Under the pieces are notes generated by a model, which made no database searches, had not been told where the DNA came from, and saw nothing but the letters and a program-made list of their open reading frames with translations. Shown one piece after another: positions 57,283-62,810 of a stretch of 64,000 nucleotides of DNA. The stretch covers positions 62,001 through 126,000 of the forward strand of contig RDZH01000012.1 in NCBI GenBank assembly GCA_004293935.1, read 5' to 3'. Origin of the DNA: Alphaproteobacteria bacterium (GTDB lineage Bacteria; Pseudomonadota; Alphaproteobacteria; Rickettsiales; UBA998). The translations under genes and the position numbers were made by a program. How positions within the stretch are numbered: position 1 is the first letter of the stretch; each line of letters opens with the position of its first letter.

Positions 57283-57618
57283 ATGCAGGAAAACCAAGCC
57301 GACATAGAAACGCCATCATATAATAAGACTGCACGCATTATTGGTAGTGTGGTGGGAGCTGTTGCCCTGACGGTATTGAGTTATCCCATTGCCATGGCAG
57401 CAGAAAAATCATCGAATGCATGGCTAAGTCACGCGGGTACTATGTATTTATTCACCCAAGGACTTGGAACATGGTGTTTACCTGTTCTTGCAGGGGGGGG
57501 GATTGGGGGTGCATTGGCTGATCGTCTTACCTCAGGTGGTGAGCCATCCTTTCAGGATCGCATCCAAAAAGAAAGGGAACATCTTGTGGATGTTCCCTCA
57601 GTTTCCATCAATCATTAG
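57283..57618 (+). CDS. small hypothetical membrane protein
   Basis: 111 residues from the ATG at 57283; an ATG at 57259 overlaps the -10 box and is unlikely. Two hydrophobic segments, IIGSVVGAVALTVLSYPIAM and GLGTWCLPVLAGGGIGGALAD, make a likely hairpin in the membrane, with a short charged C-terminus (RIQKEREHLVDVP). It resembles the other glycine-zipper proteins of this window in style. It converges with the next gene, overlapping by 4 nt. Confidence 0.65.
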   Translation: MQENQADIETPSYNKTARIIGSVVGAVALTVLSYPIAMAAEKSSNAWLSHAGTMYLFTQGLGTWCLPVLAGGGIGGALADRLTSGGEPSFQDRIQKEREHLVDVPSVSINH

Positions 57619-58490
57619 GACTGATTTTCAGTCGCTTCGGCAGCTTTCATGCGACGGAATTTGTCGTCATAATAAGCCTCCGATGCATCAAGCAACTGCC
57701 CCATGAACCAACGGTTGATCGCTGCATTAAGCAGACATCCGCCGAAATGAGCGATGCCCGGTGCGGTTGATGCAGCCTTACCAGAGGCTTTGGTAGCCAT
57801 TTTAGCATTGAATTTGCTAATAAACTTGACTACTGCCTTAGTTACAGCTTTATCAGAAGCCTTAACCCCAAGTTTGACACTTCCTTTGATGCCCCCCTTT
57901 AAGCTAAGTTTGAGTTCCGCTTTTTGGCGGATCTTAAACGCCGCATCATCACCAAGAATTGCTTTATAGAAAGCATCAACGGCATCTGGGTCATCAAAGA
58001 GGTCTTTTTCCTCAACCCAATAAGCGACAACACCTAAGAAATCTTCAGTGTTGAGCACTTCAGGACCGTAGCCGTAGCGTTTGGCATAAACCCCACCGAT
58101 TGCTAAGGAAGTGCGAGCCATGCCATCAATCAAAGCAATGATGTCGAAAGCTAAAGCAGCCCAAGAGCCTAATGCCAAAAACCCGCCCGCAACAGAAGTT
58201 ACAGTATTGGCAGTATCACGGAGATTTTTAAGTCCCAGTTCATTGCCAAGCTTATAAGATTCGTTCGGATCAAAATATGCCTCACGATTCTCATTCACCT
58301 TACGGATAATGTCATTCATGCTAATTTTGAAATCCCCGAAAGGAAAATCAGCATCAGATACATACCATGCAATCGTCTTGAGAATCAATGTAGAAACATC
58401 TTGTGCGAATTTCGTGTCATTGAATCCAGTAGATTGAATGAATGCATTGATTTTCTGCTCCAACCGATCAGCCCAATTTTTATCTGCCAT
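57615..58490 (-). CDS. EcsC-like protein
   Basis: 291 residues. The central part GGFLALGSWAALAFDIIALI followed by ARTSLAIGGVYAKRYGYGPE and FLGVVAYWV resembles the EcsC family (aligned Asp in a hydrophobic helix, then a YGY motif). The N-terminal 80 residues are soluble and helical; the C-terminal third is Lys/Ala-rich with GGCLLNAAINRWFMGQLLD. EcsC proteins have no well-defined biochemical function. The 355-nt gap upstream (58491-58845) holds a long direct repeat and a palindromic repeat. Confidence 0.6.
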   Translation of the reverse strand: MADKNWADRLEQKINAFIQSTGFNDTKFAQDVSTLILKTIAWYVSDADFPFGDFKISMNDIIRKVNENREAYFDPNESYKLGNELGLKNLRDTANTVTSVAGGFLALGSWAALAFDIIALIDGMARTSLAIGGVYAKRYGYGPEVLNTEDFLGVVAYWVEEKDLFDDPDAVDAFYKAILGDDAAFKIRQKAELKLSLKGGIKGSVKLGVKASDKAVTKAVVKFISKFNAKMATKASGKAASTAPGIAHFGGCLLNAAINRWFMGQLLDASEAYYDDKFRRMKAAEATENQS

Positions 58491-58590: not shown

Positions 58591-58739
58591 AAAAAGGTAC
58601 GAAATCGTGTAAACTAGGGTAAGCCGCACTTACACCGTTTTTTTTGCATCAGTCAAGAGAAAAATATATATGGGCGCAATGTTTTTTATTATGCATCTGA
58701 AATTAAATGACATTGTAGCGTTCTATTCGCTATCGTCAT
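58591..58739 (+). repeat. long direct repeat, left copy (DR-A)
   Basis: About 149 nt beginning AAAAAGGTACGAAATCGTGT and ending GCTATCGTCAT. A second copy in the same orientation lies at 61311-61463. In the first 46 nt the two copies differ at one position. It ends in a palindromic repeat (58733-58798), as does the other copy. Confidence 0.85.
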
Positions 58740-58798
58740 TCCTGCGTATGCAGGAATCGATTGCTCTGGACTCCTGCTCTTTAAGCCAAGAGTGACGA
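58733..58798. repeat. dispersed palindromic repeat, copy 7
   Basis: TCGTCATTCCTGCGTATGCA to CCAAGAGTGACGA, appended to the left long direct repeat. Confidence 0.7.
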
Positions 58799-58845
58799 AT
58801 TTGCTGGTTTTGTGGGTTATGCAGAGGTCTCATTTAATCAATCCC

Positions 58846-59283
58846 CTACACAGCAAAAAGTTGCGATGGGTCTTTGAATGATTTAAATTCCAGCGCGTTA
58901 CCCGATGGATCAAGAAAAAACATCGTGGCTTGCTCCCCTACTTGTCCTTCAAAGCGGATATAGGGTTCAATAATAAATGTTAGATTATAGGCTTCTTTAT
59001 GTGCATACAGCCTGTCTTTCAAGGCGTGCCACTGTCCCCATGGCAATACGATCCCAAAATGACGGCACGGCACTTGTTTTCCGTCAACCGTTGCTGCGCT
59101 AATTTCTGTTGTTTCTTGAGGGCGAAGATGAGTAGAAAGTTGATGCCCAAAAAAGTTCCAATCAATCCATGCGTCTGTGCTACGCCCTTCAGCACACTCA
59201 AGCAATGTTCCGTAAAATCTGCGTGTTGCGTCCATATCAACAATAGGCACGGCAAGATGAAAAGGTGAGATGATGTGCTGCAT
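58846..59283 (-). CDS. VOC-family protein (glyoxalase/dioxygenase fold)
   Basis: 145 residues with two beta-alpha-beta-beta-beta modules: FHLAVPIVDMDATRRFYGTL at the start and MFFLDPSGNALEFKSFKDP at the end. His9, His75 and Glu132 sit where VOC enzymes carry metal ligands, so it may be a metalloenzyme such as a lyase, isomerase or extradiol dioxygenase. It lies 58 nt downstream of the racemase gene on the same strand, last in a three-gene cassette between direct repeats. Substrate unknown. Confidence 0.82.
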   Translation of the reverse strand: MQHIISPFHLAVPIVDMDATRRFYGTLLECAEGRSTDAWIDWNFFGHQLSTHLRPQETTEISAATVDGKQVPCRHFGIVLPWGQWHALKDRLYAHKEAYNLTFIIEPYIRFEGQVGEQATMFFLDPSGNALEFKSFKDPSQLFAV

Positions 59284-59341
59284 AAGTACGTCTATTCCTT
59301 AAAAATTGATGGGTGATTTTGGTATCATTTTTGCGTTGGTG

Positions 59342-60037
59342 TCAAGGGGAAATTTCATAGGTTTTGAGCGCTGCATCACACTGAAGGCGCGCCGGATCAA
59401 GAATCGGTCGATGCGCCTTATCAAGAATCAAAGGTAATTCTGTGCAGGCTAAAATGACAGCATCCACATCACCATAATGCTGCACGATGCGTAACAGCGC
59501 ATCACGATACAGGATAGGATCAGCACCACACGCAACCTGAGCTTGCATTTGCCCAATCTGTTCTCTATCCTGCACATTCGGGATACAAACATCTACGCCC
59601 CTTTGCGTTAAATAATGCGCAAAAAACCCATCTTCCATGGTAAAACATGTTCCCAATAGCAATACACGTTGATAGCCTAGATGTATTGCTGCATCAGCCG
59701 TCACATGCCCCGCATGATGTATTTTAATGGAGAGCGAGCGACGCGCCATGATTGTATCAAGCGCACGGTGCAGTGTATTATTGCACAAAATGAGGCAATC
59801 AGGTTGTTTTTCTAAGAAAAAATCTATCTCCTGCTCCAATAGTGCAGGAATATGATTCCATCCCGCATGATATAAGCTTTTAATCGGTGCATAATCCATA
59901 CTATAAAGCATAATACGTGCAGAATGTACCATGCCAAAGCGTTGTTGAATCTGCTGATTCAAGTAACGATAATAGCTGATGGTGGATGGCCAGCTTGTGC
60001 CTCCTAATAAACCTATAAGCGGTTGGTTCTGATGCAT
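59342..60037 (-). CDS. aspartate/glutamate racemase-family protein
   Basis: 231 residues from the ATG at 60037, one nt after the stop of the upstream dioxygenase gene. The family signature LIGLLGGTSWPSTISYYRYL is followed by the two catalytic cysteines, Cys85 in ILCNNTLHRA and Cys198 in VILACTELPLIL. Both are present, so a racemase (Asp, Glu or another acidic or hydroxylated amino acid) is likely active. It is coupled to an Fe(II)/2-oxoglutarate dioxygenase gene. Confidence 0.88.
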   Translation of the reverse strand: MHQNQPLIGLLGGTSWPSTISYYRYLNQQIQQRFGMVHSARIMLYSMDYAPIKSLYHAGWNHIPALLEQEIDFFLEKQPDCLILCNNTLHRALDTIMARRSLSIKIHHAGHVTADAAIHLGYQRVLLLGTCFTMEDGFFAHYLTQRGVDVCIPNVQDREQIGQMQAQVACGADPILYRDALLRIVQHYGDVDAVILACTELPLILDKAHRPILDPARLQCDAALKTYEISP

Positions 60038-60038
60038 A

Positions 60039-61157
60039 TTATCCGATTCCATAAGATTCATGACGTGATTCTTGCGCAATGCGTTCCGCATAACTAATTT
60101 TGGGATGAGACGGATCAAACACACGCTCACCAGACTGTTCAAACTGTGCCAATGCCTGCAAACTATTCTTTACAAACACTCTTTGTATCCAACGCTCCGC
60201 TTTGCCTTGCGCATCAAAATGCGCCTCAAAACGATCTCGTGAGTGTAGGGTCATGCGATTATTCACCATAACACCCGTACCAGGTGCTATGTCTACCCAA
60301 CATGATACGGCATCTACAGCTTGTTTCAAATGTTCAAATGCTTCCTGCGCACGCTCATTGACAGACAGCACCATATCAGGATAAAAAGCTACCCGTATAT
60401 CAGGATTTTCATCGGTTCCTGTCAAAATAGGCACTCTATCCGTCATTTCACGCGCACCTGCAGCCCTCCATCGCATAGGCACTTTGATACGAAAATCCGC
60501 TTTTCTTAGTGTCTCTTTGTCTTCATCAGAAAGTAACGCAAGCGCATCACGACCATCTGCAATTCTTGTTTTGGGGCAGGATTCATCATGACGAACCCCC
60601 ACTAAAACCAATGCTCCAGGGCTGGTATCTTTATCAAGATTGCCATCTTTCTGTGCAGCATTTTCAATATGAAAACTCAGCTCAACATCATATCCATTGC
60701 CCGTATAGGTTTGTTTCATGTGCGATGACGGGACAAGATTGTTAACAATTTCCTTTCCTTCAAAAATAATGCTATATGGTTCACCACTCAACGCACCCAA
60801 AGCCACAGTAATATTTTCTGACAAGGGTGTACATTTATAATCTAACCCTGTTTCACCCTTACTTTCTTCAGGACTTCCTTCAACATCCTCATAGGGAAGA
60901 TTTTCAAAATATAAATATGAGTGAGGGTGCAGCCCAGCTTTTTGTTCCTCCAACGCTGTGATTAAGCGTTCTGGGAAACACATATATGCTGCTCTCCTAA
61001 TTTCCATGATATATTCTTTCCCGCCCTCAGGATCATAATGAATTGCTCCAAGAGTTTCTCTTATTAGTTCTTTTTCTTCATTTGTCAATGTAATTATATT
61101 CTCACGCTTTAGAGGAGAATGCAATGCATTTTCTTCATAGTTTTCAGTATTGTTCAT
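60039..61157 (-). CDS. Fe(II)/2-oxoglutarate dioxygenase, VioC/AsnO (clavaminate synthase)-like
   Basis: 372 residues. The jelly-roll core shows ELSFHIENA with His163-x-Glu165 (the HxE variant typical of VioC, OrfP and AsnO), GALVLVGVRHDESCPKTRIA, ALALLSDEDKETLRKADFRI, and the distal APGTGVMVNNRMTLHSRDRF with His305, then RWIQRVFVKN where Arg326 should bind 2-oxoglutarate. Relatives hydroxylate the beta carbon of free arginine, asparagine and similar amino acids. It is the first gene of the cassette with the racemase and VOC genes. A ~21-bp hairpin lies 58 nt upstream. Substrate is unknown. Confidence 0.82.
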   Translation of the reverse strand: MNNTENYEENALHSPLKRENIITLTNEEKELIRETLGAIHYDPEGGKEYIMEIRRAAYMCFPERLITALEEQKAGLHPHSYLYFENLPYEDVEGSPEESKGETGLDYKCTPLSENITVALGALSGEPYSIIFEGKEIVNNLVPSSHMKQTYTGNGYDVELSFHIENAAQKDGNLDKDTSPGALVLVGVRHDESCPKTRIADGRDALALLSDEDKETLRKADFRIKVPMRWRAAGAREMTDRVPILTGTDENPDIRVAFYPDMVLSVNERAQEAFEHLKQAVDAVSCWVDIAPGTGVMVNNRMTLHSRDRFEAHFDAQGKAERWIQRVFVKNSLQALAQFEQSGERVFDPSHPKISYAERIAQESRHESYGIG

Positions 61158-61214
61158 CGTTATATTCTTTTAATAATTTCATTTTTTCACTTACTGTGCC
61201 TCCGTGGGCATAGA

Positions 61215-61267
61215 TATACCCATTTCACTTCAAGGAGCTGTGTCCTTGAAGTGAAATTAAGGGTATA
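61215..61267. promoter_or_regulatory. long perfect hairpin upstream of the dioxygenase gene
   Basis: ATTTCACTTCAAGGA and TCCTTGAAGTGAAAT pair over 15 bp around a 6-nt loop (61237-61242); TATACCC and GGGTATA extend the stem after a 3-nt bulge. No T-run follows in either direction, so it is not a standard terminator. Operator or leader structure is possible. The rest of the 444-nt gap 61158-61601 contains the right long direct repeat and a palindromic repeat, and no gene. Confidence 0.55.
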
Positions 61268-61310
61268 CCTTATTAAAATGATACTACGCATCATCATGTG
61301 CGATGAGCAT

Positions 61311-61463
61311 AAAAAGGTACGAAATCGTGTAAACTAGGGTAAGCCGCACTTATACCGTTTTTTTTTTTGCATCAGTCAAGAGAAAAAATGATATAATCGC
61401 AATGTTTTTTTAGTATACGCTTGAAATTAAATGACATTGTAGCGTTATATTCGCTATCGTCAT
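61311..61463 (+). repeat. long direct repeat, right copy (DR-B)
   Basis: Same orientation and text as 58591-58739, with small differences in T-runs and a few substitutions. Together they bracket 2.7 kb holding exactly the VOC, racemase and dioxygenase genes. Confidence 0.85.
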
Positions 61464-61530
61464 GCTTCGCATAAGGCAGGCATCCAGAACAACAGTTCTA
61501 ACTAGACTCCTGCCTTACGCCAAGAGTGAC
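61457..61530. repeat. dispersed palindromic repeat, copy 8
   Basis: TCGTCATGCTTCGCATAAGG to CGCCAAGAGTGAC, appended to the right long direct repeat. Confidence 0.7.
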
Positions 61531-61601: not shown

Positions 61602-62810
61602 CTACACACCCTGATGCTGCAAAATACCGCGCTTTGCGGTTGCCTCCTGCACAGAGATCATTTCAAATGCTTCAGCAACATAAGTGATAGCTTGGTCAAT
61701 TTCTTCTTCTGTGGTGAAGCGTCCAATCCCAAAACGGATGGTGGTATGGGTCTGATCTTCCGCAGCCCCCAAGGCTTGCAACGTATAGGATGGTTCCATG
61801 GTTGCAGAACTGCACGCCGAACCCGAAGAGATCGCCAAATCTTTGAGGGCAAGCATGAGGGATGCCCCCTCTTTAATAGGAAAACGTATGCTAATATTCC
61901 CCACCCAACGCTTAGTGGGATGCCCATTCAGTGTCGCTTGCGGCACATGAGACAACACGCCTGCAAAAAAGCGATGTGATAAACGTGCAATACGGTCATG
62001 CTCTTCACGCATATCATGCATGGCTATTTCTGCACTTTTTCCAAGCGCGACAACAAGGGGAACGGGCAGCGTACCTGAACGCATCCCGCGCTCTTGCCCG
62101 CCGCCATGCAGTAATGGTTCAAGGCGCACACGTGGACGACGGCGCACATATAACGCCCCAATACCTTTAGGGGCATAGATTTTATGCCCAGAAATGCTCA
62201 TAATATCAATGTTCATTTCATCGACATGAATGGGGATTTTCCCAAAGGCTTGTGCGGCATCCGTATGGAAGAACACGCCACGATCACGGCACAAAGCTCC
62301 TATCTTTTCAATAGGCTGAATAACGCCAATTTCATTATGCACCATCATCACGCTCACCAATGCGGTACGGTCTGTTATGGCGTGTTTAATGCGATCCACA
62401 TCCACCAATCCATCACGTTCGACAGGCACATAGGTGACACGAAAGCCCTCACGTTCCAGCGCACGGCATGATTCTAATACGCAACGATGCTCTGTGTTCA
62501 GCGTCACAATATGATCTTTCTTTTCACGAAAAAAATGCGCAATGCCTTTAATGGCGATATTATTAGATTCTGTTGCGCCCGAGGTAAAAATAATTTCCTT
62601 ATCCGATGCCCCAATGAGGCGCGCCACATCTTGACGTGCTTGCTCCACCCCTGCTTCTGCATCCCAGCCATAAAGATGATTGCGTGAATGAGGATTTCCG
62701 AATTTGGTAGCAAAATAGGGCATCATTGCATTCATAACGCGAGGATCAACAGGGGTCGTAGACTGATAATCCATATAGATCGGATAATGCGCAGGCGAGT
62801 TCAACATCAT
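61602..62810 (-). CDS. iscS: cysteine desulfurase IscS
   Basis: PLP enzyme that takes sulfur from cysteine for Fe-S clusters and tRNA thiolation. 402 residues. [47 protein letters not shown], the Schiff-base lysine in [28 protein letters not shown] and the mobile loop Cys in [13 protein letters not shown] identify group I (IscS). AGGAGATCACTT precedes the ATG. No iscR, iscU or iscA is seen inside the window downstream. Confidence 0.95.

Follow-up and report, generated by a model that had tools for sequence, protein, structure and literature searches.

A putative acidic amino acid hydroxylase encoded next to an Asp/Glu racemase family gene in a Rickettsiales bacterium

Introduction

Bastard et al. 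(2018) split the clavaminate-synthase-like family of dioxygenases according to their active sites (PMC6224419). One of the resulting groups, G6, has PYRA or PYRV at pocket positions P12-P15, a conserved tyrosine at P16 and a positively charged sub-pocket, and is predicted, by modelling only, to accept negatively charged side chains, e. g. those of Glu or Asp (PMC6224419). In the literature we found no paper that deals with what G6 enzymes do or with the pairing of a dioxygenase gene with a racemase gene. The paper on the PNP-1 cluster of Pantoea concerns another system and does not mention an oxygenase.

Organization of the locus

The window, i. e. the whole stretch of 64,000 nucleotides that was analysed, contains three adjacent genes on the minus strand (58846-61157). 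The first encodes a Fe(II)/2-oxoglutarate dioxygenase of the clavaminate-synthase-like family (60039..61157, minus strand; 372 aa), assigned to active-site group G6 by its pocket residues. It is followed by the gene for an Asp/Glu racemase family protein (59342..60037, minus strand), whose 231 aa are counted from an ATG that is separated from the dioxygenase stop codon by 1 nt (GGATAATATG), and, after a gap of 58 nt, by the gene for a VOC-superfamily metalloprotein (58846..59283, minus strand; 145 aa). Upstream of the dioxygenase lies iscS (61602-62810), by sequence an Aminotran_5 cysteine desulfurase, and downstream of the VOC gene a gene for a 291-aa protein with no Pfam match (57615-58490). 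Judged by its remaining genes, the window seems to come from a small proteobacterium, either free-living or associated with a host.

An earlier note on this DNA had reported three same-strand genes with intact catalytic residues, and the open reading frames bear this out. It had also joined the three genes and the surrounding repeats into one cassette and proposed to look for the same linkage elsewhere. This part does not hold. In the 59 loci with relatives of the dioxygenase described below, a racemase relative is missing near the dioxygenase in 56 and a VOC gene in all; VOC homologues are common in the order and have unrelated neighbours there, and the repeats belong to dispersed elements. 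A conserved three-gene cassette is thus rejected.

The dioxygenase and its pocket residues

The dioxygenase matches Pfam TauD (5.5e-11). Its best solved match, by single sequence as well as by profile, is AsnO (2og5, E 5.6e-19), followed by L-lysine 3-hydroxylase, VioC and clavaminate synthases. The placement of the 372-aa protein with the VioC/AsnO-like amino acid hydroxylases, and with it the class of chemistry given in the earlier note, is thus supported by sequence, AsnO being the closest solved structure.

In an alignment of 25 sequences (the window protein and 24 relatives) the Fe ligands H163, E165 and H305 are unchanged, and R322 and R326 near the C-terminus, which align with the C-terminal arginines of AsnO, are invariant. 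The same is true of E133, which occupies the alpha-amino position, and of L160, P227, R229, W230 and Y259. P227-M228-R229 together with A257 give the window enzyme three of the four G6 residues at P12-P15; the other 24 proteins have the full PYR and Ala or Val at position 257, so that position 228 is Met in the window protein and Tyr in all others. P16 presumably lies two residues after P15, as in the VioC numbering, and would then be the invariant Y259. At P6 the window enzyme has Asn, its relatives mostly Leu. These pocket positions were mapped by sequence alignment to AsnO and not by structure; on this basis the residues of the window dioxygenase and of the subgroup formed by its relatives match the G6 description. 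Given the Met in place of Tyr228 and the Asn at P6, the substrate of the window enzyme itself may have drifted.

Arg and Asn, which the earlier note had listed among the candidate substrates, now appear to be poor guesses, because the acidic residues that hold these side chains in VioC and AsnO are replaced: D241 of AsnO aligns with A257, and the DXXD motif is absent.

Distribution and origin of the dioxygenase gene

A search with an alignment that included the plasmid relatives yielded a set of 59 loci with 37-50% identity. They come from Burkholderia, Paraburkholderia, Variovorax, Pantoea/Erwinia, Pseudomonas, Massilia, Serratia, Photorhabdus, Legionella, Bartonella and others, including one Thermolongibacillus; close relatives (48-49%) reside on plasmids of Burkholderia, Rahnella and Pantoea. 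A single-sequence search of genome contigs gave no matches, and viral contigs contained no relatives. Within the order of the host, four distant homologues were present among 263 genomes, and neither the genus mate nor any family member searched had one.

The distribution is sporadic. Among its relatives the window dioxygenase forms a long isolated branch with no supported sister, and its GC3 of 0.31 compares with 0.45-0.53 in the neighbouring housekeeping genes iscS, proS and lolC. This fits horizontal acquisition of the gene.

Fourteen Bartonella loci (L073-L074, L088, L091-L092, L095, L097-L103 and L105) carry the dioxygenase paired with an MFS gene, and in only two of them is the dioxygenase full length. 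Such repeated loss suggests that the function has recently been dispensable in Bartonella.

The racemase and its pairing with the dioxygenase

The racemase matches PF01177 (7.7e-23) and TIGR00035 (115.7 bits, cut-off 93.1). Both catalytic cysteines (in CNNT and ACTEL) are present and align with those of its relatives, in agreement with the earlier reading as an Asp/Glu racemase. The closest solved relatives are 3ojc (E 5e-34) and 5hqt (E 1.6e-31).

Three Legionella loci (L079, L084, L096) contain a PF01177 racemase within the dioxygenase cluster. Past the racemase these clusters encode a 453-aa protein of unknown kind, an ATP-grasp ligase with an LAL_C2 domain and an MFS protein. The Legionella racemases share only about 23% local identity with the racemase of the window, and for this reason the two pairings probably arose separately. 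In L096 the reading frame of the dioxygenase is interrupted. In Legionella bozemanae (L079:4279-14136; also in L084 and in part in L096) a TP_methylase, two MFS genes, a flavin reductase, the racemase, the 453-aa protein without Pfam match and the ATP-grasp ligase lie together; this looks like an undescribed small-peptide pathway.

The proposal that the racemase is coupled to the dioxygenase thus stands in part. It agrees with the pocket signature for acidic substrates, and Legionella shows a second such pairing with a very different enzyme, but most of the dioxygenase relatives lack such a neighbour. Possibly, the two genes are independent neighbours, the dioxygenase alone making a hydroxylated amino acid while the racemase serves the ordinary supply or recycling of D-amino acids for the cell wall. 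Consistent with this, racemase homologues of the order (the nearest, 48% identical, in one family, and about 30% in the host's own family) have unrelated gene neighbourhoods, and a racemase is lacking near most dioxygenases of the G6 type. The 1-nt spacing, which suggests translational coupling, and the presence of a very different Asp/Glu-family racemase in the Legionella clusters argue against it, and we regard independence of the two genes as a possible but rather doubtful explanation.

Gene neighbourhoods of the dioxygenase relatives

In 52 of the 59 loci an exporter gene is located within 700 nt of the dioxygenase gene, and in five more at about 1.3-3.5 kb. The exporters belong to unrelated families, i. 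e. MFS, AEC (Mem_trans) and SBF-like proteins. Since the relatives are linked to several unrelated exporter families, the product likely leaves the cell. ATP-grasp ligases occur in 26 of the 59 loci. Where enzyme and exporter stand alone, as in Serratia, Photorhabdus and Bartonella, this layout suggests secretion of the hydroxylated amino acid as such; in loci with ligases, the context suggests that it is probably incorporated into a small peptide. The statement of the earlier note that no NRPS or antibiotic genes are near is true within the window, but the relatives sit in clusters with exporters and ATP-grasp ligases, a context that speaks for a secreted product and not for breakdown.

Two plasmid loci from Rahnella and Pantoea (L043:9977-18916, L044:7977-16917) combine the dioxygenase, an MFS gene, three ATP-grasp ligases, an aminotransferase and a luciferase-like monooxygenase within a single run of genes; each is probably a cluster for a small-peptide natural product.

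Beyond the 59 loci, three more distant relatives from the phylum (L137-L139) retain the PxR...Y signature; the one in L137 adjoins a TSUP-type exporter gene, and a still more distant one (L141) overlaps a LysE gene. Another distant dioxygenase, without the G6 pocket motif, adjoins an amino acid kinase (aspartokinase-like) and the methylaspartate mutase E chain MutE (L140:4213-7874), which suggests that its product derives from 3-methylaspartate. Two further distant relatives (L142:4679-6930, seen by eye, and L046:4715-6966, annotated on a plasmid) adjoin an argininosuccinate-synthase-like gene.

Near the window dioxygenase there is neither an exporter nor an ATP-grasp ligase. In the genome, whose assembly is about 88% complete, no ATP-grasp_4 protein was found, an absence that is provisional, and only three MFS proteins, none of them within the window. 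Hence the lone dioxygenase could be a decaying remnant of a larger exporter and ligase cluster whose dedicated pathway is gone. Besides the missing partner genes, the exchange of Tyr228 for Met in the pocket motif would agree with this, as would the broken state of most Bartonella copies, which indicates that the family is readily lost. However, the window dioxygenase has an unbroken open reading frame and retains every catalytic residue, and we consider decay improbable.

The VOC gene and the repeats

The VOC protein scores just under the cut-off of Pfam Glyoxalase. Its best solved relative is 3rri (E 9.6e-15), with which the H/H/E set is aligned; the earlier description as a metalloprotein with this set intact is therefore upheld. 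Relatives, the best of them 51-68% identical, are present in about a fifth of the genomes of the order that were searched, in varied contexts. The VOC gene is thus probably a co-resident and not part of a conserved cassette.

In two relatives of the order a RidA-like gene precedes the VOC gene (L150:4663-5564 and L152:4322-6234), and in one a threonine-dehydratase/serine-racemase-like gene follows it, all noted by eye; these neighbours hint at a place of the VOC protein in amino acid metabolism.

They also bear on a catabolic role of the locus, in which hydroxylation and racemization would feed the degradation of an unusual acidic amino acid, the VOC protein catalysing a third step. The RidA-like and PLP dehydratase-like neighbours that accompany the order-wide VOC family in some genomes would suit such a pathway, and so would the lack of biosynthetic partner genes nearby and of ATP-grasp_4 in the incomplete assembly. 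Yet the genes linked to the dioxygenase relatives are those of exporters and ligases and not catabolic ones, and the VOC gene is never linked to such a dioxygenase, which makes a catabolic role highly unlikely.

As reported earlier, two same-orientation repeats of about 150 nt enclose the three genes. Copy A (58591..58739, plus strand) continues into a dispersed palindromic element to about 58797, and copy B (61311..61463, plus strand) is followed by such an element to about 61570. The copies are 88.9% identical over 153 columns, and distances of about 105 and 154 nt separate them from the open reading frames; with E about 5e-52 their similarity is not due to chance. Nevertheless they do not appear to be ends specific to a cassette. 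Another contig carries a partial third copy (86 nt, 87%), flanked by a paralogue of the 57615-58490 gene and by purE (so named from its sequence), and a further contig a weak fourth copy. The imperfect palindrome that follows each repeat has many copies across the genome, as does a second palindromic family represented upstream of the dioxygenase (61213..61275, no strand assigned). Because of these copies we take the repeats to be intergenic elements of a dispersed kind, and their interpretation as ends of a mobile unit is not supported. They may have served recombination. The sole genus mate in the comparison has an assembly without either flanking gene of the locus.

The 57615-58490 gene and its paralogue (L123:1457-2410) are 25% identical, neither with a Pfam match, and the repeat core sits just upstream of both starts in a shared divergent intergenic region. 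Copy B contains a promoter-like pair, TTGCAT-N18-TATAAT, read by eye on the plus strand and facing away from the three genes. There was no convincing match of the repeat to a tRNA or known RNA; a single snoRNA match was far under the gathering score.

Proposed role of the dioxygenase and the racemase

The explanation that we prefer, and hold with moderate confidence, is that Asp, Glu or a closely similar acidic amino acid is hydroxylated in a reaction dependent on Fe(II) and 2-oxoglutarate, and that the racemase sets or scrambles the configuration at the alpha-carbon. The dioxygenase would hydroxylate the side chain, the racemase would work either on the substrate of this step or on its product, and the final compound would be secreted and bioactive. 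Neither the VOC gene nor the repeats are needed for this mechanism. It is supported by the AsnO family match, the catalytic set, the G6 pocket signature, the 1-nt gap and the racemase pairing in Legionella, and also by the exporter and ligase linkage of the relatives, the sporadic distribution and the low GC3. Against it count the occurrence of the racemase pairing in only two lineages, the Legionella one being a single event; the Met at the position of Tyr228, the Asn at P6 and the long isolated branch; and the missing ATP-grasp_4 in the genome, the missing exporter beside the dioxygenase and the status of the G6 substrate as a modelling prediction.

A more far-reaching version, which is unlikely in full and put forward tentatively, is a dedicated route of two enzymes, a G6 dioxygenase and a racemase of the Asp/Glu type, which together would produce free D-configured or alpha-epimerized hydroxy-aspartate or hydroxy-glutamate. 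This route would have originated separately here and in Legionella, and the wider G6 family would export amino acids of this kind to serve as antimetabolites or signals.

The G6 group of dioxygenases is broad, its members occurring among others in bacteria associated with plants, insects, amoebae and blood. The racemase pairing and the pocket residues appear to restrict the substrate to the acidic amino acids, and the exporter linkage implies a product that probably leaves the cell. Thus the group can now be tested with a handful of amino acids, and its enzymes could give new biocatalysts for hydroxy-Asp or hydroxy-Glu.

Comparison with known systems

With the G6 group the window enzyme shares the PxR...A motif, the Tyr at P16, the Glu at P2, the His/Glu/His triad and the two arginines; it differs in having Met for Tyr at P13, Asn at P6 and a racemase partner instead of an exporter. 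AsnO, the L-asparagine 3-hydroxylase (2og5), has the same Fe and 2-oxoglutarate residues and the alpha-amino Glu. In contrast to AsnO, the window enzyme has Ala for D241, a 3-residue insertion before the RWxQR motif, and PMR in place of the lid residues PPS. The L-arginine hydroxylases VioC and OrfP have the family and the catalytic set in common with it by sequence, whereas the DXXD guanidinium pocket is missing in the window enzyme, which has PMR...A at those positions.

The window racemase is a clear full-length match to the Asp/Glu racemases 3ojc and 5hqt, with both catalytic Cys and within the TIGR00035 family; unlike these, its gene is in operon position with a dioxygenase. In the Legionella clusters, too, a PF01177 racemase accompanies a dioxygenase from the subgroup of the window enzyme, but these clusters contain in addition a ligase, a reductase and exporters, and have no VOC gene.
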